A stretch of 37,912 nucleotides of DNA from Rhodospirillales bacterium. Lineage in GTDB: Bacteria > Pseudomonadota > Alphaproteobacteria > Acetobacterales > Acetobacteraceae. The notes under the pieces are model-generated. The model saw only the letters and a list, made by a program, of their open reading frames with translations, was not told the origin of the DNA and made no database searches. The position numbers were made by a program, and so were the translations under genes. The stretch covers positions 1 through 37,912 of the forward strand of contig JAQGHV010000165.1 of NCBI GenBank assembly GCA_028288785.1, written 5' to 3'. This document shows positions 12,760-32,206 of the stretch, one piece after another; within the stretch, counting starts at the first letter, position 1; the number at the start of each line of letters is the position of its first letter.

Positions 12760-12767
<8 letters not shown>
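12009..12767 (-). CDS. Short-chain dehydrogenase/reductase (SDR)
   Basis: A 252-aa classical SDR. The NAD(P) motif VTGGNGGIGLG is at the N-terminus, NNAG in the middle, catalytic Ser in NNGSMLS and Tyr/Lys in YAASK, with the late PGWIDTDLT and GTAIPVDGG blocks. This is the FabG/gluconate-dehydrogenase-like group; substrate unknown. The GTG at 12773 adds two residues (MAMF) and is an alternative start. Either start overlaps the end of carA (8 or 14 bp), implying coupled translation. Why an SDR is wedged between carA and carB is unclear. Confidence 0.9.
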
Positions 12768-14143
<1,376 letters not shown>

Positions 14144-14145
<2 letters not shown>

Positions 14146-14156
14146 AAGGTCCTTAT
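14144..14156. promoter_or_regulatory. Perfect palindrome over the carA start codon and ribosome-binding site
   Basis: ATAAGG-T-CCTTAT is a perfect 13-bp palindrome that includes the carA Shine-Dalgarno (AAGGA on the minus strand) and part of the ATG. With a 1-nt centre it suits a dimeric DNA-binding protein better than an RNA hairpin. It lies 1 bp from the next palindrome. Function is inferred. Confidence 0.5.
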
Positions 14157-14157
14157 C

Positions 14158-14174
14158 TGGGAAAAAATTTCCCA
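14158..14174. promoter_or_regulatory. 17-bp perfect inverted repeat upstream of carA
   Basis: TGGGAAA-AAA-TTTCCCA is a perfect inverted repeat (7-bp arms, 3-bp spacer) that is unusually AT-rich for this genome. It is centred about 20 bp upstream of the HTH-carA start and lies between carA and divergent yqeY. It could be an operator, possibly for the HTH of CarA itself, or a 5'-UTR hairpin controlling the operon. A -10-like TATTAT lies about 25 bp further upstream on the minus strand, but no convincing -35 was found. Confidence 0.55.
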
Positions 14175-14295
14175 CGTCCAGCTCGATGCGCACGGGCGAT
14201 AATATTTCTCCCATGCGCCATATTCGGCTATCTGACCTTCCCCCATCTTCCGCTGGCGCGGCCATGTTGCGCCAGAAGCATCAGGAGTACGCGCG

Positions 14296-18186: not shown

Positions 18187-18415
18187 ACAGGCTTTCACTC
18201 GGACGGGGCAGGGTCGGCGCGAAAGTTTTAGCATCAGAAAAGGCGATGCAGGAACAACCAGATACCGCGAGGTACAGCGTTCGTCTCGATAGCGACGTAA
18301 AAAACGTTCCGAACACGCGGAAGTGCTTTGGCAGCAGCCGGTCTGCCGGGGATCCGGACAGCGCTTGCGGCGATGCGGCTTCCCGCGCCACACTGGGCTG
18401 TACCAAGGATCGGGC

Positions 18416-19405
18416 ATGCACAACATCGGGAGCAAAATCACACGGCGCAGCGCCTTGGCCGGCTCGGCTGCCCTCGGCGCCGCCGCATCCGGTGCGGCAT
18501 TGGCGCAACCGGCCTGGCCGTCGCGCCCGGTCCGCATCGTCATCCCGTTCGCACCGAGCGGCGGCGCCGACACCTTCACGCGCCTGATGACGGAACCGCT
18601 CGCCGCGGCCTTCGGCCAACCCTTCTTCGTGGAGAATCGCCCCGGCGGCGGCGGTGTCATCGGCACCGACGCCGCGGCGAAGGCGACACCGGATGGCCAC
18701 ACGCTGCTGATGCTGACGGTGACACTCACGGCCAACGAAACCCTGATGCCGAACCGGCCCTACGTGCTGCTGCGCGACCTCACGCCGGTGGCCAGCCTGA
18801 ACCGCACCCTGCAGGTGCTGGTCGCCCACCCTGCCCTTCCCGTCACCAACGTGGCCGAGCTCATCGAATGGGCGAAAGCTCGCCCAGGCCAGCTCGACTA
18901 CTCGACGGCCGGGCCGGGCACACCCTACCACATCGCTTTCGAGGTGTTCCGCCACATGGCCGGCATCCAGGTGCAGCACATCCCTTTCCGGCTCAGCGGC
19001 GATGCGCGCAACGCGGTAGTGGGCGGCCAGGTGCCGGCGATGTTCGACGGCATCGCGACCATGCTGCCGCTCATCCGCGCCGGCCGGGTGCGCGCGCTGG
19101 CGACCACCGGCACCGAACGCTCCACCCTGATGCCCGAGACACCGACCGTCGCCGAGACCTTGCCTGGCTATGAGCAGGTCGGCTTCAACGGGCTGCTGGC
19201 ACCGGCCGCGACGCCGCGCCCGATCGTCGAGAGGCTGAATGCCGAGATCAACCGCATCCTCGATACCGATGCCCTGAAGGACGCCTTCGGACGGCTCGGC
19301 GCCGAGATCGCGCCGATGTCGCCGGAGGCCTTCGGCGACGTGCTTCGCGCTGATATCGAGCGGCGCCGGGTTTGGATCAACCTCGCGGGCATCCAGCCGC
19401 AATGA
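18416..19405 (+). CDS. TctC/Bug-family tripartite tricarboxylate transporter substrate-binding protein (1)
   Basis: A 329-aa periplasmic binding protein. The signal ITRRSALAGSAALGAAASGAALAQ is Tat-like with a twin Arg, and mature WPSRPVRIVIPFAPSGGADTFTRLM is the family hallmark. VENRPGGGGVIGTDAAAKATPDGHTLL and the later RVRALATTG...TVAETLPGYE complete the fold. No TctA/TctB membrane partners are in the window, which is usual for the expanded Bug family. The stop is followed directly by the [2Fe-2S] subunit gene, whose ribosome-binding site (GAGGAG) overlaps this stop. This protein therefore likely captures the substrate of the molybdenum hydroxylase. Ligand unknown. Confidence 0.93.
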   Translation: MHNIGSKITRRSALAGSAALGAAASGAALAQPAWPSRPVRIVIPFAPSGGADTFTRLMTEPLAAAFGQPFFVENRPGGGGVIGTDAAAKATPDGHTLLMLTVTLTANETLMPNRPYVLLRDLTPVASLNRTLQVLVAHPALPVTNVAELIEWAKARPGQLDYSTAGPGTPYHIAFEVFRHMAGIQVQHIPFRLSGDARNAVVGGQVPAMFDGIATMLPLIRAGRVRALATTGTERSTLMPETPTVAETLPGYEQVGFNGLLAPAATPRPIVERLNAEINRILDTDALKDAFGRLGAEIAPMSPEAFGDVLRADIERRRVWINLAGIQPQ

Positions 19406-19418
19406 GGAGCGCCGCCGC

Positions 19419-19883
19419 TTGTTCGCCTTCACCCTGAACGGTGCGGCCGCTGCGCTGGACCTGCCCGATGACGTGCCCTTGCTGGCCGCGTTGCGCGAGG
19501 CAGCCGGCCTTTCCGGCCCCCGCTTTGGCTGCGGCGTAGAGGCTTGTGGCGCCTGCCACGTACTCATCGATGGGCAGTCGGTGCCGACCTGCGTTCTGCC
19601 GCTCGGCGCCGTCGCCGGGCGCGTCGTCACCACGGTCGAGGGGCTGGGCACGGAAGCAAGCCCGCATCCCCTGCAGACCGCCTTCCTGGCCGAGCAGGCC
19701 GGGCAGTGCGGCTACTGCCTCTCGGGCATCCTGGTCAGTGCCGCGGCGCTGCTCGCGGCCAATCCTGACCCTGACGAGGCGGCGGTACGCCTGGCGTTGG
19801 AACCCCATCTCTGCCGCTGCGGCAGCCACAACCGCATCATCCGCGCCGTGCTGCGCGCCGCCCGCCAGGGACAGCCGGCATGA
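19419..19883 (+). CDS. Molybdenum hydroxylase [2Fe-2S] subunit
   Basis: A 154-aa electron-transfer subunit of the xanthine dehydrogenase family. The plant-ferredoxin-type cluster uses Cys38, Cys43, Cys46 and Cys58 (CGVEACGACHVLIDG... TC). The C-terminal four-helix cluster uses Cys97, Cys100, Cys132 and Cys134 (QCGYC, LCRCGSH). The start is a TTG, supported by GAGGAG nine bases upstream and by the expected N-terminus (FTLNG); no ATG is available. It overlaps the large subunit by 4 bp. No FAD subunit or cytochrome c is encoded nearby, so the electron acceptor is unknown. Confidence 0.93.
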   Translation: MFAFTLNGAAAALDLPDDVPLLAALREAAGLSGPRFGCGVEACGACHVLIDGQSVPTCVLPLGAVAGRVVTTVEGLGTEASPHPLQTAFLAEQAGQCGYCLSGILVSAAALLAANPDPDEAAVRLALEPHLCRCGSHNRIIRAVLRAARQGQPA

Positions 19884-21985
19884 GTGCGACACTCCCCAGC
19901 AGCCTTGCGACCAACCCGCGCCTGTCGCAATGGCTGGGCTTCTCGGCGGATGGCACCGTGGTGATCCGGCCAGGCAAGGTCGAGATCGGCCAGGGCATCC
20001 TGACCGCGCTCACCCAGATCGCGGCCGATGAACTCGACGTCGCGCTGCCCCGCATCCGCGTCGAGACGGTCACCACGCCGACCAGCCCGGATGAGGGCGT
20101 CACCTCCGGCAGCCTCTCCGTGCAGAACAGCGGCGTGGCGCTGCGCCATGTCTGTGCCGAGGCGCGGTCCATCTTCCTCGGTGTCGCTGCACAAGGCAGC
20201 GGCGTGCCGGTTGAGGCGTTGCGCGTCGAGGATGGCGATTTCGTGGGGCCGCAGGGCGCCATCGCCTCCTACTGGTCGCTCGCCGAGCGCGGGTTGCTGG
20301 ACGGCGATGCGACACCGGGCAGCCGCGCCAAGCCACCCTCGGCGCGCGTCACGGTGGGGACCTCGACCGCGCGCATCGACCTGCCGGACAAGGTGTTCGG
20401 CCGCCCGCGTTTCCTGCACGACATGCGCCCCGTGGGGCTGCTGCATGCCCGCGTTCTCAGGCCGCCCTCGCGCGGCGCCACGCTGCGCGCGATCGCACCT
20501 GGCGCCCTGCCCGAAGGTGCGACGCTGGTGCGCGACGGCAGCTTTCTTGCGGTGGTGGCGAAGGCCGAGCATGTCGCGGACAGGGCGCTGGTGCGCCTCG
20601 CGCGGCTCGCCGAATGGGACGAGCGGGACACGCTCCCGCACGAGGGCGCGATGCCGGCGTGGCTGCGCCAGGCCGTGGGCGAGAGCAGCGTCGTGGCCGA
20701 GCGCGATGCCGGCGGCGCGACCGCCACACGCCGCATCCGGCGCGACTTCTTCCGCCCGCTGGTGGCGCATGCCTCGATCGGACCGTCTTGCGCGATGGCG
20801 CTGTGGACCGGCGACACCGTGGAGGTCTGGTCACACACCCAGGGGCCGTACAATCTGCGCCTCGATCTCGCAAAATCGCTGCGCATTTCAAACGAGTCGG
20901 TGGTCGTGCGTCATGTCGAGGGTGCCGGCTGCTATGGACACAATGGCGCGGATGACGTGGCGCTGGACGCGGCGCTGGCGGCGCGCGCTATGCCCGGTCG
21001 CACGGTGCGCGTGCTCTGGAGCCGGGCGGATGAGCTGGGCTGGTCGCCATTCTCCTCGGCCATGCTGGTCGAGGTCGAGGCGGGGCTGGACGATGCCGGC
21101 AACATCGCCGAGTTCCGCCTGGATGTGACCAGCAACGGCCATTCCTCCCGCCCCGGGCGTGGCGCGCTGCCAACGCTGCTGGCGGCATCGACCCTCGACC
21201 CGCCCTTTGCGGTGCCGGTCGCGATCAACATGCCCGTGAAGGGTGGGGGCGGCGCACAGCGCAATGCGGTGCCGATCTACCGCATTCCGACCTTGCGCGT
21301 GGGAATGCGCACGATCACCGACATGCCGATCCGCACCTCGGCGATGCGCGGCCTGGGCGCGCCGATCAACGTCTGGGCGATCGAGGCTGTCGTGGATGAA
21401 TTGGCTGCCCTGGCGGGCCAGGACCCTCTCGCCTTCCGGCTGCGCCACCTCGATGACGCTCGTGCGGCGGCGGTGTTGCAGCGCGCCGCCGACATGGCGG
21501 GTTGGTCGCAGCGCGAGGCGGGGGAAGGCAGCGGGACGGGCCTGGCCGTCGCGCGCTACAAGAACCTCGGCGCCTGGTGTGCGGTGGCGGCGGAAGTCGC
21601 TGTCGAAGCCGAGGTGCGCGTGACACGCATCTGGATCGCGGCTGATCTTGGCGAGGTGGTGAACCCCGATGGTGCCGCGAACCAGCTGGAGGGCAGCGCG
21701 ATCCACGCCACCAGCCAAGCGCTGAAGGAGGCGGTACGCTTCGACCGTCGCCGCGTCACCTCCGACAGTTGGGAGAGCTACCCGATCCTGCGCTTCTCGG
21801 AAGTGCCGAAGGTGGAGGTGGCGCTGATGGACCGTCCCGAAATGCCGCCGCTCGGCGCGGGCGAGCCAGCCTTCGCGCCGACCGTCGCGGCGATCGCAAA
21901 CGCGATCCACGCGGCACTCGGCGTGCGGCCGCGTGCGATGCCGTTTACGGCCGCCAACCTTGCGGCCGCGATGGACCAGGGCTGA
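19880..21985 (+). CDS. Molybdopterin-dependent hydroxylase large subunit (xanthine dehydrogenase family)
   Basis: A 701-aa catalytic subunit resembling the isoquinoline-1-oxidoreductase/nicotinate dehydrogenase type. It has the small N-terminal domain, Gly-rich Mo-cofactor stretches (VEIGQGILTALTQIAADEL; VEGAGCYGHNGADDVALDAA; MRGLGAPINVWAIEAVVDEL) and the catalytic glutamate in PLGAGEP (Glu662). It hydroxylates a carbon next to nitrogen in an aromatic ring or an aldehyde, with water as oxygen source. There is no Tat signal, so it is probably cytosolic. It is coupled to the 2Fe-2S subunit by ATGA. Substrate not readable; an N-heterocycle fits the hydantoinase genes downstream. Confidence 0.92.
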   Translation: MSATLPSSLATNPRLSQWLGFSADGTVVIRPGKVEIGQGILTALTQIAADELDVALPRIRVETVTTPTSPDEGVTSGSLSVQNSGVALRHVCAEARSIFLGVAAQGSGVPVEALRVEDGDFVGPQGAIASYWSLAERGLLDGDATPGSRAKPPSARVTVGTSTARIDLPDKVFGRPRFLHDMRPVGLLHARVLRPPSRGATLRAIAPGALPEGATLVRDGSFLAVVAKAEHVADRALVRLARLAEWDERDTLPHEGAMPAWLRQAVGESSVVAERDAGGATATRRIRRDFFRPLVAHASIGPSCAMALWTGDTVEVWSHTQGPYNLRLDLAKSLRISNESVVVRHVEGAGCYGHNGADDVALDAALAARAMPGRTVRVLWSRADELGWSPFSSAMLVEVEAGLDDAGNIAEFRLDVTSNGHSSRPGRGALPTLLAASTLDPPFAVPVAINMPVKGGGGAQRNAVPIYRIPTLRVGMRTITDMPIRTSAMRGLGAPINVWAIEAVVDELAALAGQDPLAFRLRHLDDARAAAVLQRAADMAGWSQREAGEGSGTGLAVARYKNLGAWCAVAAEVAVEAEVRVTRIWIAADLGEVVNPDGAANQLEGSAIHATSQALKEAVRFDRRRVTSDSWESYPILRFSEVPKVEVALMDRPEMPPLGAGEPAFAPTVAAIANAIHAALGVRPRAMPFTAANLAAAMDQG

Positions 21986-21987
21986 GG

Positions 21988-22002
21988 CGGCGTATCACGC
22001 CG
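21988..22002 (+). terminator. Possible hairpin after the molybdenum hydroxylase operon
   Basis: CGGCGT-ATC-ACGCCG is a perfect 6-bp stem with a 3-nt loop, 3 bp after the large-subunit stop. It lacks a T-run, so it may be a weak terminator or mRNA 3' end. The remaining spacer to 22209 shows no convincing gene. Confidence 0.35.
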
Positions 22003-22209
22003 ACTTGCTGGCACGCCGATAACTTGCGCCCGGCGGCTCGTGCGACGCGCTGCCCGCCGGAAAAGATACGCACCGTCTCTCCCGGCCGACACCGTGACCG
22101 CGCGGCTTACAAGCGGCTTACAAGATGCCTTTCGAACAGCAGCCTGGATGTCGATGACGCGGCACCCCGCATCGTCACCAAGGGGGGCGCGCTCTACTCT
22201 CAACCGTGA

Positions 22210-22722
22210 CTACGCGGCGGCATCCACCGCGACATACGGCTGGCGCTTCACGCGGTCCATGTTCATGCCCTCGATCCGCAGCAGCCGGGTCGGTCCATCC
22301 CGACGCGGCGAGTGCAGCGCGCCCGCCTCATAGAGGTGGGCATCCCCCGGCCGCAGCGCGTAGTCGCGGGCGCGCTTCACCTTGCCGGGCGACGTGTCCG
22401 TCGGGCGCGCGACGCATTCCCAATCGGTCATCAGCGTCTCGCCGGCGGCTTGGCCGTAGATGGCCCAAGACGGCCCGTGGTCGTGCGGCGGGCTCTGCTT
22501 CGGACCGGTATAGGCATGCGCGAGGATGGTGAAGCCGAGGTCGGGATCCTCGTACAGGACATGGCGTTCCGACGTGCCCTCGGGGATCAGGGCGGCGACG
22601 AAGGCGCCATCCTTCAACGCGTCCCGCACGAGGTCGCGGACTTTCTCACGCCCACCCGGGCCGGGATCGGCGGTGATGGATGCGCGGCACTGCGCGGCGA
22701 ATTCCTCAAGCGTCATGGGCAT
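22210..22722 (-). CDS. Cupin-fold protein, possibly cysteine-dioxygenase-like
   Basis: A 170-aa protein with a cupin metal site: PPHDHGPSWAIYGQAAGET gives His80 and His82, and a second motif YALRPGDAHLYEAGALHSPRR gives His129 and His137. The layout PHDHG-x-W-x-x-x-x-x-x-G resembles cysteine dioxygenase/mercaptopropionate dioxygenase-type cupins. Substrate and metal are not proven. The start with AAGGGAG about nine bases upstream was chosen; an internal ATG two codons later is possible. It runs opposite to the hydroxylase operon, convergent with it, so it may be separately regulated. Confidence 0.8.
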   Translation of the reverse strand: MPMTLEEFAAQCRASITADPGPGGREKVRDLVRDALKDGAFVAALIPEGTSERHVLYEDPDLGFTILAHAYTGPKQSPPHDHGPSWAIYGQAAGETLMTDWECVARPTDTSPGKVKRARDYALRPGDAHLYEAGALHSPRRDGPTRLLRIEGMNMDRVKRQPYVAVDAAA

Positions 22723-22899
22723 CGTTCATGCTCCCTTGCGAATGATCGGCGCGCAGAATGCGCGCGTGGCGGCCGCGAGGGAAGCCGCCGCGTGAACCTG
22801 TCTCGGCGAGGGCTCCCCACGGCCGCCGCGGAGGTCTAGAAATGCGCCGCGGACAGGCGAGCCACCCGGCTCCATCCGCCCTGATACGAGGAGAGCACC

Positions 22900-23100
22900 A
22901 TGGCCGAACCGACCGATCTGCAACGCGTGGTGGAACAGCTGCGCCGCGGCGCACCCACCCGCCGCAGCCTCGACCAGCTCCGGCGCGGCCAGCAGCCGGG
23001 CGCGACCGCCTCGGCCGAGGATTGCCTGAAGGCTGGACGTGACCCCGCCCGCGTGTTCGAGCCCATGCGCCGCCAGCAGGGCAACCCCGGCGGCGCCTGA
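22900..23100 (+). CDS. Small basic hypothetical protein
   Basis: A 66-aa, Arg/Gln-rich soluble protein (MAEPTDLQRVVEQLRRGAPTRRSLDQLRRGQQPG...). The upstream sequence GAGGAGAGCACC before the ATG is a convincing ribosome-binding site. It contains two similar LRRG segments (VEQLRRGAPTR and LDQLRRGQQPG). No known domain. It is divergent from the cupin (177-bp spacer) and convergent with the hydantoinase, so it is probably expressed from its own promoter. Confidence 0.65.
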   Translation: MAEPTDLQRVVEQLRRGAPTRRSLDQLRRGQQPGATASAEDCLKAGRDPARVFEPMRRQQGNPGGA

Positions 23101-23108
23101 GCCAGCGA

Positions 23109-24533
23109 CTAGACGGCGGGGCGGCTGCGCACGTCGTAGGGCACCTTGCGCGGCAGGAATTCACCCTGCCTGAGGTCGCCCGAGAAGGCGCCATCCTCCA
23201 CCACGACCTTGCCGCGCATGACCGTGACACGCGGCCAGGCGGTCACCTGGTGCCCCTCCCAGGGCGTGTAGTCCGTCTCGTGCATGTCCGCGGCGCGGAT
23301 GGTCTTGTCGATGCCGGTTTCCAGCACGACGACATCTGCGTCCGAGCCCACCGCGAGCGCGCCCTTGCGCGGATACAGCCCCATGATCTTCGCCGCATTG
23401 GACGAGACCATGTCCACGAAGTGCTCGGGCGTGTAGCCGCGCTTGGTCACCATCTGCGTGTACATCAGGCCGACCCGTGGCTCGACGCCGGAATTGCCCC
23501 CCGTGGTGTCGTCGATGCGGCTGCCCTGCAGCTTGATGCGCAGCGGACAGCAGAGCTCGTCGGTGGCGATGACCTGTAGTGCGCCACGGTTGGTCGCTTC
23601 CCACAGCTTCTTCTGGTCCTCGGGATACTTCAGCGAGGGATAGGTGTGGTACATCTGCGCGTTGGGCTTCTTGTAGTCATCGGCCGTGTACATCAGGTAC
23701 TGGTGCAGGGTTTCGCCATACATTGGGAAGCCCCGCGCGCGGGAGCCCGCGAGTGCGGCGACGCCGGTCGCCGCCGAGACGTGCACCATGTACAGCGCGC
23801 AGCCCTCGACATTCTCGGCGAGGCGGATGACGCGGTTGAAGGCGAGTTCCTCAGACAGCGTGTTGTGCACCTCGGCCATGAATTCGAAGCCGACGCGGTT
23901 CTCGCGGATCAGCTTCTCGTACATGAACATGACGATGTCGTTGTCCTCGGCATGGATGGCTGCGATGCCACCCTCCGCGGCGACGACCTTCAGCGCCTCC
24001 CAGATGTGGCCGTGCCTGACCATGCGGCCGGTCTGCCCGATGCGGATGTCGGTGGTGAACATCTTGACGCTGGCGTGCCCCGCCTGGATCGCTTCGGCGA
24101 GTTCGCCGAACTGCACGGGCGGCACGTCGCCCATCAGCGTCAGGTGCCAGCCATAGTCGCAATAGCAGGAACCCTTCCATATCGCGTCGGTCTGCTCGAT
24201 CGCCTGCTGGATGGAGCGCTCATGCGTGCACTGCACGAAGTCGATCAGCGTCGTTGTCCCGCCATGCAGCGCGGCGCGGCTCACCTGCTCCGGCGGATCG
24301 GTGAACTTGGGCGGATCATTGGCGCTCATCTTGATAGCGGAGGAGCAGTGGATGTGCGGGTCGATGCCGCCTGGAATGACCAGGCCGCCCTTGGCGTCGA
24401 GGATGCGCGACGCGGCCGCGAGGCTGCCAGGTGCACCGATCGCCACGATGCGCTCGCCGGAGATGCCGATATCGACGGCGGCAAGCCCGCTCGGCAGCAC
24501 GCATTGACCGTTGGTGATCACGAGATCCAGCAT
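23109..24533 (-). CDS. Dihydropyrimidinase / D-hydantoinase family amidohydrolase
   Basis: A 474-aa cyclic amidase. The zinc ligands of GGIDPHIH (His60, His62), the carbamylated lysine in ASVKMFTTDIR, further histidines in IHAED and MVHVSAATG, and the catalytic Asp in IATDELCCP are all visible. Family members open the ring of dihydropyrimidines, hydantoins or related cyclic imides. The start MLDLVITNGQ is chosen because it overlaps the CobW stop by one base (TGATG) and begins the amidohydrolase beta-sandwich; the upstream extension lies inside that gene. It ends 9 bp from the convergent 66-aa gene. Substrate uncertain. Confidence 0.92.
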   Translation of the reverse strand: MLDLVITNGQCVLPSGLAAVDIGISGERIVAIGAPGSLAAASRILDAKGGLVIPGGIDPHIHCSSAIKMSANDPPKFTDPPEQVSRAALHGGTTTLIDFVQCTHERSIQQAIEQTDAIWKGSCYCDYGWHLTLMGDVPPVQFGELAEAIQAGHASVKMFTTDIRIGQTGRMVRHGHIWEALKVVAAEGGIAAIHAEDNDIVMFMYEKLIRENRVGFEFMAEVHNTLSEELAFNRVIRLAENVEGCALYMVHVSAATGVAALAGSRARGFPMYGETLHQYLMYTADDYKKPNAQMYHTYPSLKYPEDQKKLWEATNRGALQVIATDELCCPLRIKLQGSRIDDTTGGNSGVEPRVGLMYTQMVTKRGYTPEHFVDMVSSNAAKIMGLYPRKGALAVGSDADVVVLETGIDKTIRAADMHETDYTPWEGHQVTAWPRVTVMRGKVVVEDGAFSGDLRQGEFLPRKVPYDVRSRPAV

Positions 24534-25537
24534 CAAACCATCCCTTCCTTCATCAATTCCCCGATCGCGGGGTCGCCCTCGGCGAAGCGCTCGAGCAGCA
24601 CCTCCGGCGCAATGCCACGCACGATGAAAACCATGCGGCTCGTGCGGTCCGCATCGGGCCAATCCGGTAGCCAGCGCGGCGCGTACATCGTGTGCTGCAC
24701 GGCGTGGATCGCGGCGGGGCCCCCTGCCCGGTCCGCGAATTCAACGATGCCCTTCACGCGGAGCAGATCCTCGCCATGGGTCTGCGCGAGGCGGCCAAGC
24801 GCCATCGCGAAAGCGAGCCTGGTCATCGGCCGGCGCAGCGTGAGTGTCCAGGCGGCGATGCCGTGCGCGTGCACCGCGGTCGCTGCCATGCGCGAGCGCG
24901 GGATGCGGAACACGCCGCCGTCGAACAGTAGCGTCGCGGGATCGACCTTGCGCGCATCCACCAGCGTCGCGATCGGGTTGAGTGCGGCCAGTTGCGCGCG
25001 CAACTCGTCCGATGCCGGTGCCAAATCCGTTTTGGTCAGCAGCAGGCGGTCGGCGCTCGCGGCCTGGGCGACGGCTTCGGGGAAGCGCGCGAGGGTGGCG
25101 AGGCCGAGCACCGCATCGACAGCGGTCACCACGGTATCCACGCGCAGGGATGCTTCCAGGAAGGCGTCGGCTGACAGGGTGTAGAGAATCGGCGCTGGCT
25201 CCGCGAGGCCGCTCGTCTCCAGCACGATGCGGCGGAACGGGCGCTCGCCAGGACGCGCGAGGCGGCGGAGCAGCATGTACAGCGTGTCCGCCAGGTCCTG
25301 CCGCACCGCGCAGCAGACGCAGCCATTTGGCAGCTCGACGACATCCTGGTCGATGGCGTCGAGGAGCAGATGATCGAGGCCCACTGCGCCGAATTCATTG
25401 ATGATGACGGCGGTGTCGGTGAAGCTGGGGTTCGCTAGCACGCGCGAGAGGAAGCTGGTCTTCCCGCTGCCGAGGAATCCCGTCAGCACCGAGAATGGCA
25501 AGGGCGCATCCGGCACCGGTGGGCGCGGCCCAATCAT
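24533..25537 (-). CDS. CobW/COG0523-family GTPase (putative metallochaperone)
   Basis: A 334-aa G3E GTPase. Walker A is GFLGSGKT (20-27), followed by INEFGAVGLDHLL and the metal-binding GCVCC motif (72-76), then ETSGLAEPAPI, LTKTDLA and a C-terminal CobW_C region (TRLAFAMALGRLAQTHGEDLLRVKGIVEFAD... HTMYAPRWLPDWPDADRTSRMVFIVRG). COG0523 proteins deliver Zn, Co or Fe to client enzymes. It is first in a two-gene unit with the hydantoinase (1-bp stop/start overlap), so that metalloenzyme is the obvious client. No Zur-type site was recognised upstream. Confidence 0.92.
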   Translation of the reverse strand: MIGPRPPVPDAPLPFSVLTGFLGSGKTSFLSRVLANPSFTDTAVIINEFGAVGLDHLLLDAIDQDVVELPNGCVCCAVRQDLADTLYMLLRRLARPGERPFRRIVLETSGLAEPAPILYTLSADAFLEASLRVDTVVTAVDAVLGLATLARFPEAVAQAASADRLLLTKTDLAPASDELRAQLAALNPIATLVDARKVDPATLLFDGGVFRIPRSRMAATAVHAHGIAAWTLTLRRPMTRLAFAMALGRLAQTHGEDLLRVKGIVEFADRAGGPAAIHAVQHTMYAPRWLPDWPDADRTSRMVFIVRGIAPEVLLERFAEGDPAIGELMKEGMV

Positions 25538-25623
25538 CGCGGGGCGGGTTTACACGTCATGCCGATCCCGTTCGCGCTTTCCATCTTCCGCCCGTCATCC
25601 AGTCGCGGGGAACGTTGCACGCC

Positions 25624-25824
25624 ATGGGCCGGCACGTAAACCTCGCCCCTGAGCATCCGGCATTCCGCGCCTTCCCTGATGCCGAAATGGCGCGCCACGC
25701 CGCCGTGGTGGCAGCCGCGGGAGTTCAGCCCGAACGAGCACCATGGACGGCACCGCGACCTTCGTGCAGCCTGCCAATGCGCGCCTGGGGGGGACGCAGT
25801 CCGAGACATCTGGAGGTCCGATAA
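25624..25824 (+). CDS. Possible small upstream ORF coupled to TctC (2)
   Basis: A 66-codon frame (MGRHVNLAPEHPAFRAFPDAEMARHAAV...) whose stop overlaps the ATG of the downstream TctC gene as TAATG. The first half looks protein-like, but the second half is Pro/Arg-rich and unrecognised, and its ribosome-binding site is weak. It could be a leader ORF or a chance frame in the 286-bp divergent spacer. Confidence 0.3.
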   Translation: MGRHVNLAPEHPAFRAFPDAEMARHAAVVAAAGVQPERAPWTAPRPSCSLPMRAWGGRSPRHLEVR

Positions 25825-26810
25825 TGCGCACCATGCGCCTGCCCCGCCGCACCGCCATGGCGGCTGCTTTCCTGCTCGCCGCTTCACCGCGCAACGCGCG
25901 CGCCGAGTGGCTTCCGAACCAGCCGATCCGCATCCTGAACGGCTACCCGCCGGGCGGCTCGGTGGACATCGTCTTCCGCATCGTCGCGGAGGGTGTGCTG
26001 CGCATCGCCGGAAAGACCATCGTGCAGGAGGTGCGCAGCGGCGCCTACGGCTTCATCGCCGCCCAGGCCGCCTCCCGCGCGGCACCAGATGGCTACACGC
26101 TGGCCAGCGCCATCATGGGGATGATGTGCGTGGCACCCGTGGTTCCCGGCAGCGTGATCCCGATCGATGTGGACCGCGACCTCACCCCGGTTGCGGCGCT
26201 CGCCGGCACGCCGATGGCGCTGATCGCGCGGCTCGATGCACCCTTCTCGGACCTCGATGGACTGGCCCGCTACGCCCGGTCGCGCAATGGTGGCGGCACC
26301 TTCGCGTCGTCCGGCAATGGCTCGATCAACCAGCTTGCCGCGGCGCACCTGCTCCATGAGCTCGGCGTCGAGATGACCCATGTTGCCTATCGCGGCGGCG
26401 CGCCGGCAGTGATGGACGTCGCGGCGCGCCGTGTTGATATCTTCATGGCCAATATAGCCGAGGTCGCGCAGCTGATCCGCGCCGGCGAGGTGAAGGCGCT
26501 CGGCATCACCTCGGCGACGCCGGTATCGCTGTTGCCGGACCTGCTGCCGTTCGCCGTGCAATATCCTTCCCTCGAGATCAACAACTGGTTCGGCGTCGCC
26601 GGGCCAGCCAACCTGCCCGACGACATCCGCGCCGGCCTTGCCGCGCTGTTCGCCCAGGCACTCGCCGACCCACAGACGGCCCGCACCCTGCGTGAGCGCG
26701 GTCTTGAACCCATGGGCGAAAGTGGGGAAGCCTTCGTGGCCCGTATCCGGCGCGACCGCGAGCGCTGGCGCGCGGTCGCCATCGCCGGCAACATCCGCTC
26801 CGACGGATAA
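25824..26810 (+). CDS. TctC/Bug-family substrate-binding protein (2)
   Basis: A 328-aa periplasmic binding protein with a signal peptide (MRLPRRTAMAAAFLLAASPRNARA). The mature Bug signature reads PNQPIRILNGYPPGGSVDIVFRIVAEGV, with later FASSGNGSINQLAAAHLLHELGVEMTHVAYRGGAPAVMDV. The start is supported by GGAGG eight bases upstream. It is first gene of a run with hyuA, hyuB and a TPP enzyme (12-bp gap to hyuA), so it probably binds the substrate those enzymes process. Membrane partners are absent. Confidence 0.92.
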   Translation: MRTMRLPRRTAMAAAFLLAASPRNARAEWLPNQPIRILNGYPPGGSVDIVFRIVAEGVLRIAGKTIVQEVRSGAYGFIAAQAASRAAPDGYTLASAIMGMMCVAPVVPGSVIPIDVDRDLTPVAALAGTPMALIARLDAPFSDLDGLARYARSRNGGGTFASSGNGSINQLAAAHLLHELGVEMTHVAYRGGAPAVMDVAARRVDIFMANIAEVAQLIRAGEVKALGITSATPVSLLPDLLPFAVQYPSLEINNWFGVAGPANLPDDIRAGLAALFAQALADPQTARTLRERGLEPMGESGEAFVARIRRDRERWRAVAIAGNIRSDG

Positions 26811-26822
26811 CCAGGATTTCTC

Positions 26823-28892
26823 ATGGCGCGTTACTCGCTTGGCATCGATATCGGCGGCACCTTCACGGATCTGGTGCTGCTGGACCCTGAGACCGGTCGC
26901 ACCGCGATCTGGAAGGAGAGCACCACCCCGGACGACCCCTCGCGCGGAGCCATGCACGGCCTCGCGCGGCTGCTTGATACGAGCAGGATCGCGGCCGCGG
27001 AAATCGTCCGCGTGGTGCACGCGACCACGCTGTTCACCAACGCGCTCATCGAGCGCAAGGGGGCGGCGACCGGGCTACTTACGACGGCCGGCTTCCGCGA
27101 TATCCTGGAGATCGGGCGCGAGCGGAAATACGAGCTGTACGATTTGTTCCTCGAGATGCCGAAGCCGCTAGTCCCGCGCCCCTGGCGACGCGACGTGCCC
27201 GAGCGCCTGAACGCCGATGGCAGCATCGAGACGCCGCTCGATATCGAGGCGGTGCTGGCCGAAGTGGGCGAGCTCGCGGCGGCGGGCGTCACCAGCCTCG
27301 CCATCTGCTTCCTCCACGCCTACGCGAACCCGGTCCATGAGCATGCGGCGGCGGCGGCCATCACCGCGCGCTTCCCGGCGTTGAGCTTGTCGCTGTCCTG
27401 CGATGTTGCGCCTGAGATCCGTGAATATCCGCGGATGACGACCACGGTCGCCAACGCCTATGTGCGCCCGATCGCTGAGATCTACCTGGACCGGTTGGAG
27501 GCGGCGCTGAAGGCCTCCGGCGTGCCTGGCGCGCTGTTCCTGATGCTCTCCAATGGCGGCCTCACCCATGGCGGCGAGGCCAAGCGCGCCCCGGTGCAGT
27601 TGCTCGAGAGTGGGCCTGCGGCGGGGGCTCTCGCGGGTGCCTGGTTCGGCCGCAAGGCGGGGCTCGACCGCGTGCTCGCCTTCGACATGGGCGGCACCAC
27701 GGCGAAGCTTGCCCTCGTCGATGACGGGGAGCCACTGGTCGCCTGGGGGTTCGAGGCCGCGCGCACCAAGCGCTTCCTGCGCGGCAGCGGCTTGCCGGTG
27801 CAGATCGCGACGGTGGAGCTCATCGAGATCGGCGCCGGTGGCGGGTCCATCGCGCGCGCCAGCGGCCTCGGCACCCTCCAGGTCGGGCCGGACAGCGCGG
27901 GCGCGGAGCCCGGGCCGGTCTGCTACGGCCGCGGCGGCACGGAACCGACCGTGACCGACAGCGACCTGGCCCTGGGCTACCTCAACGCGGATTTCTTCCT
28001 CGGAGGTGCCATGCGGATCGAGACGGCGCCGGCCCAGGCCGCCCTCGGGGCGCTGGCGGACCGGCTCGGCATTGCGGCGTCGCGCAGCGCCTTCGGCATC
28101 CATGACGTGGTGAACGAGACGATGGCGGGCGCTGCCCGCGTCGCCATCGCGGAGCGCGGGCGAGTCCCGCGCGACTATGCCTTGCTCGCGACCGGCGGCG
28201 CCGCGCCGGTGCATGCCTGGAACGTGGCCGAGAAGCTCGGCATCGATCGGGTGCTGTGCCCGCCGGGCGCCGGCGTCGGCAGCACAATCGGGATGCTGAT
28301 GGCGGCGGCACGGGTCGACCGCGTGGCCTCCTACACGACGGCGCTTGCGGCCGCCGACTGGAAGCATATCGCCGCGATCTTCGCGACGCTGGAGGCCGAC
28401 GCGCATGCGGTCGTGCGCGACACCGGCGCCGACCTCACGCAGCAGAGCGTGCGGCGGCTCGCGGATATGCGCTATGTTGGCCAGGGTTCGGAAATCACCA
28501 TCGCATTGCCCAGGAACATCGACCCCACGGGCGTGCTTGAAGCCTTCGAGACCGCCTACAAGCGCCTGTTCGGCCGCACACCGCCCGGCGCGCAGGCGCA
28601 GTTCGTCGCACTGCGCCTGGCGCTCAGCGCGCCGATGCCTGGCGCTGGTGGCACATTGCTCATCACCGGCATGGCCGGCGCGGCACCACTGAAGGGTAGC
28701 CGCTTCGTCCATTTCGAAGCCGCCGGCGGTGCCGTCGAGACACCCGTCTATGACCGCTACGCCCTGCCGCCCGGCAGCGTGCTGCGCGGCCCCGCCATCT
28801 TCGAGGAAAACGAGAGCACCTTCGTCGTGGGACCGGGCGCGCGCGTCACGATCCTGCCTGATGGGGCCATGCTCGCGGAGCGCCTGCCATGA
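26823..28892 (+). CDS. hyuA: Hydantoinase/oxoprolinase family protein, subunit A
   Basis: A 689-aa ATP-dependent cyclic amidase subunit. The actin-like ATPase signatures are GIDIGGTFTDLVLLD at the N-terminus and FDMGGTTAKLALVDDGEP in the middle, with an acetophenone-carboxylase/oxoprolinase-like C-terminal part. With subunit B it would hydrolyse (or carboxylate) a substrate such as N-methylhydantoin or 5-oxoproline. AGGA precedes the ATG. It overlaps the B subunit by ATGA at 28889-28892. Length and motifs are normal for the family; the substrate cannot be read. Confidence 0.93.
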   Translation: MARYSLGIDIGGTFTDLVLLDPETGRTAIWKESTTPDDPSRGAMHGLARLLDTSRIAAAEIVRVVHATTLFTNALIERKGAATGLLTTAGFRDILEIGRERKYELYDLFLEMPKPLVPRPWRRDVPERLNADGSIETPLDIEAVLAEVGELAAAGVTSLAICFLHAYANPVHEHAAAAAITARFPALSLSLSCDVAPEIREYPRMTTTVANAYVRPIAEIYLDRLEAALKASGVPGALFLMLSNGGLTHGGEAKRAPVQLLESGPAAGALAGAWFGRKAGLDRVLAFDMGGTTAKLALVDDGEPLVAWGFEAARTKRFLRGSGLPVQIATVELIEIGAGGGSIARASGLGTLQVGPDSAGAEPGPVCYGRGGTEPTVTDSDLALGYLNADFFLGGAMRIETAPAQAALGALADRLGIAASRSAFGIHDVVNETMAGAARVAIAERGRVPRDYALLATGGAAPVHAWNVAEKLGIDRVLCPPGAGVGSTIGMLMAAARVDRVASYTTALAAADWKHIAAIFATLEADAHAVVRDTGADLTQQSVRRLADMRYVGQGSEITIALPRNIDPTGVLEAFETAYKRLFGRTPPGAQAQFVALRLALSAPMPGAGGTLLITGMAGAAPLKGSRFVHFEAAGGAVETPVYDRYALPPGSVLRGPAIFEENESTFVVGPGARVTILPDGAMLAERLP

Positions 28893-30514
28893 CCGATCCT
28901 ACCCCCCGCACTTTCGACGCCGTCGAGATCGAACTGCTCTGGCGCCGCCTGATCTCGCTGGTGGACGAGGCCGCCGCCGCGCTGGTTCGCACCAGCTTCT
29001 CGACCCTGGTGCGCGAGAGCTACGACTTCTCCTGCATTGTCACCGACGCATCGGGGCAGTCGCTGGTGCAGGCCACCGAGAGCATCCCGAGCTTCATCGG
29101 CACCCTGCCCGAGACGGTGAAGCACTTCCTCCGCGCCTTCCCGGAGGAGACGCTGTCGCCCGGCGACGTGCTCATCACCAACGACATCTGGCTCGGCACC
29201 GGGCACCTGCCCGACATCACCGTGGCCAAGCCGATCTTCCTCGACGGCAAGCTGGTGGCGTTCAGCGCATCGACCGCGCATGCCCCGGATATCGGCGGCA
29301 AGATCCGCAGCCCCGAGCCGCGCGAGGTGTTCGAGGAAGGGCTGCAGATCCCTCCGCTCCGGTTGATGCATGCCGGACGCGTCGACGACACGCTGGTTGC
29401 GATGATCCGGAAGAACGTGCGCACGCCCGAGCAGACGCTCGGCGACCTCTGGGCGCAGGTCGTCGCACTGGACCTCATGGAGGAGCGGCTGCTGATCCTG
29501 ATGGCGCAGGCGAAGCTCGATCACCTGCGCGACCTCGCCGCCGACATCCATGGCCGCTGCGAGGTTGCCATGCGGGACGCGATCCGCGCCCTGCCCGATG
29601 GCACGTACCATTCGGAGCTGCAGACCGACGGCGTCCTGGACCGGCCGGTGACACTCAAGATGGCCCTCACCATTGCGGGCGACGCCATCACGGTGGACTA
29701 CGCGGGCACCGACGGGCAGGTGGATCGCGCGATCAACTGCGCGCTTTGCTACACCTATGCGATGACGATGTACGGCATCAAGGTGTGCACCAGCGCCACC
29801 CTGCCGAACAACGAGGGTGCCTGGCGGCCGATCACCGTGCTCGCCCCGCCAGGCTGCATCGTGAACCCGCAATTCCCGGCCTCCGGCGGCTCGCGCATGC
29901 TGATCGGGCACTACCTGCCGATGTTGGTCTTCGGCTGCCTCGGCCAGGTGGTGCCGGAGCGGGTGATGGCGGCCTGCGGGTCGCCTATGTGGGGGATGAA
30001 CCAATCGGGCGTGCGCGACGCGGATGACGGCGCCGGAAAGCCCTACGCGAACATGTTCTTCTTCAATGGCGGGATGGGCGGCAACACGCGCGGCGACGGC
30101 CTTTCGTGCCTGTCGTGGCCGTCCAACGTGTCCTCCACCGCGGTCGAGATCAGCGAGCAGATCGCTCCCGTCCGCATCCGCCACAAGCGCCTGCGGGTGG
30201 GCAGCGGCGGCGATGGCCGGCATCGCGGCGGGCTGGGGCAGGAGATCCTGTTCGAGAACCTCTCCGCCACGCCCGTTGCCGTCTCCTTCCTGGCCGAGCG
30301 CACCATCTTCGCGGCCTTCGGCATCGAGGGCGGAGGCGCCGGCGCGCCAGGCGTGCTGGAGATCAATGGCGAGCGCGTCGATCCCAAGCGGCAATACGTG
30401 CTGCATGAGGGCGATACGGTCTCCATGGCAACACCAGGTGGTGGTGGCCATGGCCCGCCTGGCGAGCGTGACCCGGCGGCGCGGCGGGCCGATCACGAGG
30501 CCGGCTACCTCTAG
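28889..30514 (+). CDS. hyuB: Hydantoinase B/oxoprolinase family protein, subunit B
   Basis: A 541-aa HyuB-type subunit. It has the N-terminal VEIELLWRRLISLVDEAAAALVRTSFSTLVRESYDFSC, the metal/substrate-region block GDVLITNDIWLGTGHLPDITV, and SASTAHAPDIGG, as in the family. The C-terminal GDTVSMATPGGGGHGPPGERDPAARRADHEAGYL is the usual Gly-rich end. It acts with HyuA. It is 63 bp upstream of the TPP enzyme, which has its own strong GGGAGGAAG site, so all four genes are likely one transcript. Confidence 0.93.
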   Translation: MTDPTPRTFDAVEIELLWRRLISLVDEAAAALVRTSFSTLVRESYDFSCIVTDASGQSLVQATESIPSFIGTLPETVKHFLRAFPEETLSPGDVLITNDIWLGTGHLPDITVAKPIFLDGKLVAFSASTAHAPDIGGKIRSPEPREVFEEGLQIPPLRLMHAGRVDDTLVAMIRKNVRTPEQTLGDLWAQVVALDLMEERLLILMAQAKLDHLRDLAADIHGRCEVAMRDAIRALPDGTYHSELQTDGVLDRPVTLKMALTIAGDAITVDYAGTDGQVDRAINCALCYTYAMTMYGIKVCTSATLPNNEGAWRPITVLAPPGCIVNPQFPASGGSRMLIGHYLPMLVFGCLGQVVPERVMAACGSPMWGMNQSGVRDADDGAGKPYANMFFFNGGMGGNTRGDGLSCLSWPSNVSSTAVEISEQIAPVRIRHKRLRVGSGGDGRHRGGLGQEILFENLSATPVAVSFLAERTIFAAFGIEGGGAGAPGVLEINGERVDPKRQYVLHEGDTVSMATPGGGGHGPPGERDPAARRADHEAGYL

Positions 30515-30577
30515 CCGCCCCCTGGCCTGAGCTTGCCGGCGCGCGCATAGTCGCCGGCAAAACAGGGAGGAAGCGGG

Positions 30578-32206
30578 ATGAAACTCGGCGCAGCGATTGC
30601 GGAAATCATGAAACGTGAGGGCATCGAAATCCTCACGGGATATCCGGTCAACCACCTCATTGAATTCGCCGCCGAGCGGGATATCCGCCCGGTGATGGTG
30701 CGCCAGGAGCGCATCGGCCTGCACATGGCCGACGCCATCTCCCGCGTCACCTCCGGCCGCAAGATAGGCGCCTTTTGCATGCAGCACGGGCCGGGTGCCG
30801 AGAACGCCTATGGCGGCGTGGCGCAGGCCTATGGCGAGAGCGTGCCGATCCTGGTGGTGCCGATGGGCTATGCCCGCCGCATCGCGCATATCGACCCGAA
30901 CTTCAACTCCTCCATCTCGATGAAGGGCATCTCGAAATCGGCCGAGCCGGTGTTCATCGCCGCCGAGATCGGCAACATCATGCGCCGCGCCTTCACCCGC
31001 CTGCGCAATGGCCGCGGTGGCCCCGTGATCGTGGAAGTGCCGACGGATATGTGGAACGAGGAGGTGGCCGAGCCGCTCGACTACATCCCCGTGATGGCGA
31101 CGCGCTACGGCCCCGACCCGGCCGAGATCCGCAAGGCGGCCAAGCTGCTGGCCAATGCGAAGAACCCGGTCATCTATGCTGGCAGCGGCGTGCATTGGGC
31201 CGAGGCGTGGCAGCAGCTGCGCGTGCTGGCGGAGCTGCTGGGCGCGCCGGTAACCACGAGCCTTGGCGGCAAGTCGAGCTTCCCGGAGGATCATCCCCTG
31301 TCGCTGGGCTCCGGTGGGCTCGCGATGCCGCGGCCGGTGCGGACCTTCCTCGATCGCGCGGATGTGGTGTTCGGCATCGGGTGCAGCTTTACGGAGACGA
31401 ATTTCGGCATCCGCATGCCGAAGGGTCCGCGCTACATCCACGCGACGCTCGACCCCATGCACCTGAACAAGGACCTCCGCGCCGAGGTCGGGCTGATCGG
31501 CGATGCCGCCCTAACGCTCGATGCGCTGCTGGCGGAGCTTTCGGGCATGGTGAGCGGGCGCGACTATACCGCCGTCGCCGCCGAGATCGCCGCCGGGCAG
31601 GAAGCCTGGCTTGGCGAGTGGATGGGCAAGCTCACGCACGACAATGGGCCGCTCAATCCCTATCGCGTGCTGTGGGACCTGCAGCACACGGTGGATATGA
31701 AGAACACCATCATCACGCATGACGCCGGCAGCCCGCGCGACCAGCTCAGCCCGTTCTGGAAGGCCACGGAGCCGCTGAGCTATCTCGGCTGGGGCAAGAC
31801 GACGCAGCTGGGCTACGGGTTGGGTCTCGCGATGGGTGCGAAGCTCGCGAAGCCGGAGAAGCTGTGCATGAACGTCTGGGGCGATGCCGCGATCGGCTTT
31901 ACGGGGATGGACTTCGAGACCTGCGTGCGCGAGCGCATTCCGATCCTGTCGGTGCTGCTGAACAACTTCTCCATGGCGATCGAGCTCAAAGTCATGCCGA
32001 TCAGCACGGAGAAGTACCGCAGCACGGACATCTCCGGCGACTACGCGGCGATGGCGCGCGCCTTCGGCGGCCATGGCGAACGGGTGACGGAGCACTCGGA
32101 GATCGTGCCAGCCATCCGCCGCGCGATCGCGCAGACGGAGGCTGGCGTTCCGGCGTTACTGGAGTTCATCACGAGCAAGGAGACGGAAGTCTCGCGCCAC
32201 AACTGA
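30578..32206 (+). CDS. Thiamine pyrophosphate-dependent enzyme (acetolactate-synthase-like)
   Basis: A 542-aa enzyme with the three-domain TPP fold. The N-terminal Pyr domain carries the catalytic Glu44 in MVRQERIGLHMADA, a central domain follows (LLANAKNPVIYAGSGVHWAEA), and the C-terminal PP domain has the Mg-TPP motif WGDAAIGFTGMDFETCVRERIPILSVLLNN. The FAD-binding details of true acetolactate synthase are not obvious. The family acts on 2-oxo acids (decarboxylation or carboligation). Position at the end of the hyuAB run suggests it handles the ring-opened or keto-acid product. Exact reaction unknown. Confidence 0.9.
   Translation: MKLGAAIAEIMKREGIEILTGYPVNHLIEFAAERDIRPVMVRQERIGLHMADAISRVTSGRKIGAFCMQHGPGAENAYGGVAQAYGESVPILVVPMGYARRIAHIDPNFNSSISMKGISKSAEPVFIAAEIGNIMRRAFTRLRNGRGGPVIVEVPTDMWNEEVAEPLDYIPVMATRYGPDPAEIRKAAKLLANAKNPVIYAGSGVHWAEAWQQLRVLAELLGAPVTTSLGGKSSFPEDHPLSLGSGGLAMPRPVRTFLDRADVVFGIGCSFTETNFGIRMPKGPRYIHATLDPMHLNKDLRAEVGLIGDAALTLDALLAELSGMVSGRDYTAVAAEIAAGQEAWLGEWMGKLTHDNGPLNPYRVLWDLQHTVDMKNTIITHDAGSPRDQLSPFWKATEPLSYLGWGKTTQLGYGLGLAMGAKLAKPEKLCMNVWGDAAIGFTGMDFETCVRERIPILSVLLNNFSMAIELKVMPISTEKYRSTDISGDYAAMARAFGGHGERVTEHSEIVPAIRRAIAQTEAGVPALLEFITSKETEVSRHN

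Follow-up and report, generated by a model that had tools for sequence, protein, structure and literature searches.

A COG0523 GTPase gene overlapping that of a hydantoinase-like amidohydrolase: a candidate metallochaperone and its client

Introduction

Maturation of metalloenzymes by dedicated GTPases is well illustrated by UreG, which acts with UreE, UreF and UreD: a G3E GTPase and accessory proteins mature an enzyme of the amidohydrolase superfamily that has a carboxylated lysine. Within COG0523, another part of the G3E family, Nha3 is the maturase of the Fe-type nitrile hydratase, and the clients of most other members are unknown (PMC9164220). Haas et al. (2009) described 15 COG0523 subfamilies with diverse gene neighbourhoods, in a main text where the words hydantoin, amidohydrolase and allantoin are absent (PMC2770081). 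Our literature search found no paper linking COG0523 or CobW to the hydrolase described here, and an earlier listing, e.g. in the survey of Edmonds et al. (2021), is possible.

Here, we analyse a stretch of 37,912 nucleotides (hereafter, the window) from an assembly of a Rhodospirillales bacterium (GCA_028288785.1, contig JAQGHV010000165.1), for which the original prediction was that a CobW-type GTPase serves as the dedicated metallochaperone of a single amidohydrolase encoded next to it.

Results

The two genes are on the minus strand of the window, with the following features:

24533..25537, minus strand: COG0523 (G3E) GTPase gene, 334 aa, with GFLGSGKT, GCVCC, ETSGLA and TKTD
23109..24533, minus strand: hydantoinase-like amidohydrolase gene, 474 aa, with TDELCC at residues 324-329
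24531..24535, minus strand: TGATG stop/start overlap with a single common base, A24533
24541..24549 (approximate), minus strand: Shine-Dalgarno-like purine stretch AAGGAAGGG, 5' of the hydrolase ATG and within the GTPase gene, identified by eye
22210..22722, minus strand: cupin-like protein gene, 387 bp downstream of the hydrolase gene

The junction reads ...AAGGAAGGGATGGTTTGATGCTGGATCTC, where the TGA of the GTPase occupies 24535-24533 and the ATG of the hydrolase 24533-24531, which confirms the predicted one-base overlap at 24533. The TGATG junction is also found in a genome of the same genus (G001) and in L025, which encodes a 75% identical hydrolase. Compared with G001, the window's hydrolase gene has a dN/dS of 0.07 and its GTPase gene one of 0.13, i.e. 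both are under purifying selection and are thus maintained proteins. These observations, together with the widely recurrent adjacency described below, argue that the overlap is not a product of chance. The cupin-like gene is present in G001 and absent across the wider clade, its match to Cupin_2 is sub-threshold (E 0.079), and its membership of the unit is doubtful.

The upstream gene encodes, as predicted, a COG0523 protein of the G3E family, with the nucleotide-binding domain (PF02492, 2.2e-40), the CobW_C domain (PF07683, 3.5e-20), a Walker A motif (GFLGSGKT) and the GCxCC motif (GCVCC). YjiA is both its best curated model (157 bits, under the equivalog cut-off of 361) and its only solved relative found; scores against the models of CobW (TIGR02475, 112.9 bits, cut-off 332.1) and ZigA (NF038288, 95.9 bits, cut-off 600) also fall below threshold. 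It is probably a metal-delivering GTPase. An alternative is that it gates, protects or remodels the hydrolase without carrying metal itself. This would leave identical genetic evidence, and it has a precedent in MeaB-type G3E GTPases, presented in the text of Haas et al. as gates and protectors of their client (PMC2770081). Yet every cassette GTPase (one encoded with the hydrolase) that is readable at this point retains GCxCC, which has been implicated in metal binding (PMC9164220), and we regard a gating role as unlikely.

The hydrolase matches Amidohydro_1 (1.7e-21), and its nearest models are those of dihydropyrimidinases and D-hydantoinases, every one of them scoring under its cut-off: TIGR02033 gives 318.7 bits for an equivalog cut-off of 393.25. 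The allantoinase model TIGR03178 also stays below threshold, with 209.4 bits for 357.85. Its AlphaFold model (pLDDT 94.8) superimposes on D-hydantoinases with a TM of ~0.91 at ~30% identity. The binuclear metal centre expected of the client is supported by six predicted ligands (H60, H62, K157, H194, H251 and D325), which the alignment shows to be kept both in the clade of the window's enzyme and in the canonical controls. The tree separates this clade from canonical dihydropyrimidinases with 100/100 support, and its members show TDxxCC and KxFTTDI where canonical enzymes show TDHCxF and KxFMAY. The prediction of a hydantoinase thus stands for the fold and the six ligands, but the separate clade, the altered active-site motifs and the score below the TIGR02033 cut-off indicate a hydantoinase-like enzyme and not a canonical hydantoinase. 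TDxxCC is found in 77/77 hydrolase loci of the window's family. We rejected the idea that this motif strictly marks the presence of the GTPase, because it also occurs in L032, L035, L038 and L060, whose genomes lack a GTPase of the cassette clade; the link between motif and GTPase is therefore a loose one.

To assess recurrence, we scanned contigs of GTDB genomes with an alignment of relatives, which provided 36 clade members and 44 canonical dihydropyrimidinases. We also searched 300 genomes sampled evenly from the window's family and a sample of 399 genomes of the phylum. A COG0523 gene adjoins the hydrolase in 20/36 clade members and in 0/44 canonical dihydropyrimidinases; with relatives from whole genomes added, the clade count becomes 25/45 loci (against the same 0/44), uncorrected for shared ancestry. 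Since canonical enzymes have the same six ligands and no GTPase neighbour, the ligands do not explain the need for a chaperone. The hydrolase is present in 76/300 genomes of the family and, in the phylum sample, was found in the window alone. Among 77 family loci (window excluded), the GTPase lies within 5.5 kb of the hydrolase in 49, all 49 on the same strand, and within 1.2 kb in 45, counts that are uncorrected for relatedness. Hydrolase and GTPase distances are correlated (r = 0.80, permutation maximum 0.32, uncorrected for species relationships), and identical sister pairs occur in the two trees. Recurrent adjacency, the absence of which had been set beforehand as the refuting outcome, is therefore widespread, always same-strand and specific to the clade. 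No fusion of GTPase and hydrolase was seen in the loci read.

Could this adjacency reflect mere descent in a few lineages, with no functional meaning? Most cases do fall within one family, and the phylum-wide sample gave only the window. Against this stand 1) three gene orders (hydrolase-small gene-GTPase, small gene-GTPase-hydrolase and GTPase-hydrolase), each with the genes together, so that the proximity survived rearrangement; 2) the strict strand agreement; 3) clade members in both Alphaproteobacteria and Betaproteobacteria; and 4) the empty canonical control. We consider neutral descent very improbable.

On the plus strand, divergent from the pair, positions 18323-32206 hold what is probably a catabolic cluster. 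It encodes HyuA/HyuB, a molybdenum-hydroxylase-like pair, a ThDP enzyme and two TctC receptors, a content that suggests degradation of an N-heterocycle or a lactam. The GTPase might then serve another metalloenzyme of the cluster, such as the molybdenum-hydroxylase-like pair or HyuA/HyuB, with the hydrolase as a mere fellow gene. Across compared loci, however, the commonest neighbour of the hydrolase is the GTPase (26/46), followed by the TctC transport receptor (14/46), other enzymes being variable, and the small gene described below tracks the hydrolase genome-wide. Another client in the cluster seems to us a little less probable even than gating.

In a tree with paralogues, every cassette GTPase falls in one clade (support 96/94), which includes unlinked GTPases from seven genomes with the hydrolase (G016, G093, G097, G099, G100, G101 and G102). 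When COG0523 proteins from hydrolase-free genomes are added as further outgroups, support becomes 85/80 and two extra proteins enter near the base: one from G013 (L228), with a His-rich stretch, whose gene follows that of another hydrolase of the dihydropyrimidinase-like type (31% identical), and one from G032 (L223), encoded directly 3' of an M24 metallopeptidase gene. COG0523 genes related to the cassette ones are thus also found beside other metallohydrolases. A point against a dedicated chaperone is that the assemblies of some clade members lack a cassette-type GTPase, namely those of the group L032/L035/L038/L060, of G098 and G103 and of the outgroups L056, L057 and L059, although many are incomplete metagenome-assembled genomes. 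We also rejected the claim that a cassette-type GTPase is present wherever the hydrolase is unlinked, as neighbourhoods and trees placed several matches among regulator-linked or other COG0523 lineages.

These trees bear on the idea of a zinc-sparing role, in which the GTPase would be a chaperone of a Zur regulon and the hydrolase would simply be co-expressed under zinc limitation. In the account of Haas et al., Zur regulons include COG0523 genes together with paralogous copies of zinc enzymes, dihydroorotase among them (PMC2770081). The COG0523 genes adjoining a Fur-family regulator nevertheless form a separate clade, together with the second copy of the window's genome (G000, L002), and no regulator gene was seen adjoining the window pair. 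A zinc-sparing role is accordingly improbable.

Most relatives have an additional ORF of ~95-115 codons between hydrolase and GTPase, whose product shares the pattern LLxxxLxLWxVxGxV ... RW ... LLxxLRxAL. Neither of the two members scanned matches Pfam, and the 19 aligned gave no credible NCBIfam match. The gene has a dN/dS of 0.16-0.28 and in many loci shares 4 nt with one neighbour or with both. In 61/77 loci it is on the same strand as the hydrolase and no more than 400 bp downstream of it, and in 63/77 it is within 0.9 kb. Of the 300 family genomes, 69 have it. The hydrolase passes the threshold used in 67 of these, and broken contigs account for the remaining two: in G204 the final 104 residues of a hydrolase sit at the contig edge directly before the small gene, and in G294 the contig starts 85 bases upstream of it. 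Its linkage can be split: it accompanies the GTPase with the hydrolase apart in G123, G202 and G251, and it lies beside the hydrolase with the cassette-type GTPase elsewhere in G016, among others. This would be the behaviour expected of an intermediary between the two proteins. In the predicted structure (pLDDT 89.6), a helix is followed by four or five strands, and another helix closes the fold. The top three hits of a fold search were frataxins, below significance (E 0.3-0.4, TM <0.5), and comparison of the profile with alphaproteobacterial CyaY was negative (probability 1.5%). We do not claim homology to frataxin, because the profile comparison is negative despite the suggestive fold matches.

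The window belongs to the minority without this gene. GTPase and hydrolase occur with no adjacent small gene in the window, G001, G029, G216, G291, G324, L025, L026, L033 and L053, and in one copy each in G127, G170 and G097; G127 and G170 have two hydrolases, one per type. The seven entries of this small-gene-free type in the hydrolase tree form one clade (100/100), and so do their GTPases (100/100). Genome-wide searches for the small gene gave nothing above noise in G000, G001, G029, G108, G109 and G111, and a single marginal match in G110. Candidates in the window and its genome were discarded as noise-level matches inside a LysR-type gene.

Several other loci deserve mention. In three genomes with the hydrolase elsewhere (L197, L198 and L199), a COG0523 gene overlaps the 3' end of a gene of the fatty-acid-hydroxylase family, which are metal-dependent enzymes. 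At L207:4258-6688, L208:7840-10260 and L209:8923-11377, the COG0523 gene is of a different lineage and comes after genes for an enzyme of the polysaccharide-deacetylase family and for a Cys-containing protein of ~107 aa (MCALCG...) that has no match in Pfam, possibly another unit of enzyme, small protein and GTPase. In two Betaproteobacteria, a second hydrolase gene lies 4-5 kb beyond the cassette on its downstream side (L027:8520-9875 and L028:14589-15974); its product shares ~30% identity with the hydrolase of the window. The record L031, titled Bordetella parapertussis, is a contig of a metagenome-assembled genome whose cassette genes group with Betaproteobacteria, and it may be misnamed. 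The window also contains, at 12760-14265 on the minus strand, an ORF for the small subunit of carbamoyl-phosphate synthase with an apparent N-terminal extension (start as predicted) resembling a helix-turn-helix.

Discussion

Many related bacteria keep the GTPase and hydrolase genes together, usually with a small third one, which makes the first two a strong candidate for a metal chaperone paired with its own client. We think it probable that the GTPase is the dedicated metallochaperone, or insertase, of the adjoining hydrolase; the gating, other-client, zinc-sparing and neutral readings are all weaker. We infer a process in which 1) the GTPase would bind a divalent metal ion via GCVCC; 2) once loaded, it would dock on the nascent apo-hydrolase, aided by coupled translation; 3) GTP hydrolysis would release the metal into the H60/H62/K157/H194/H251/D325 site, with K157 carboxylated; and 4) the mature hydrolase would open a cyclic amide, imide or ureide within the catabolic cluster. 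In most relatives, the third protein of ~100 aa could act as an adaptor or accessory subunit, with which the window's sub-clade dispenses. The original prediction of a dedicated metallochaperone for one amidohydrolase is thus partly supported. The data show the gene overlap, the recurrent and clade-specific pairing on one strand, the co-occurrence, the conserved ligands and the purifying selection; GTP-dependent transfer of metal, the identity of metal and substrate and the role of the third protein are inferred. Its picture of one GTPase with one client needs amending: the pairing recurs, but the third gene of most relatives makes the simple two-gene pair the exception. A bolder and more doubtful version is a three-part metallocentre assembly, made of the hydrolase, a small adaptor of possibly frataxin-like topology and the COG0523 GTPase, which would load a non-standard metal centre involving C328-C329 beside the ligand D325, the window's lineage having a two-part form.

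The conserved overlapping gene pair names a candidate client for a COG0523 protein, and the canonical enzymes, with the same fold and no partner, offer a clean contrast, so that co-expression can decide the identity of the client. The small third family may represent a new kind of chaperone adaptor or enzyme subunit, for which lineages with and without the gene provide a natural comparison.

The window system would work like that of UreG, with a GTPase from a different G3E subfamily and no related accessory proteins. Its GTPase shares the two-domain architecture and motifs of YjiA, CobW and ZigA, and differs in scoring under the equivalog cut-off of each. The hydrolase has the fold (TM ~0.91) and the six metal ligands of D-hydantoinases and dihydropyrimidinases, from which it is set apart by ~30% identity, a fully supported separate clade, TDxxCC and KxFTTDI, and a sub-cut-off score. 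Finally, Nha3 is likewise a COG0523 GTPase with GCxCC, encoded beside the one metalloenzyme that it serves (PMC9164220), whereas the putative client here is a dihydropyrimidinase-like amidohydrolase and many relatives add a small gene; the two systems may be likened by role and gene context.
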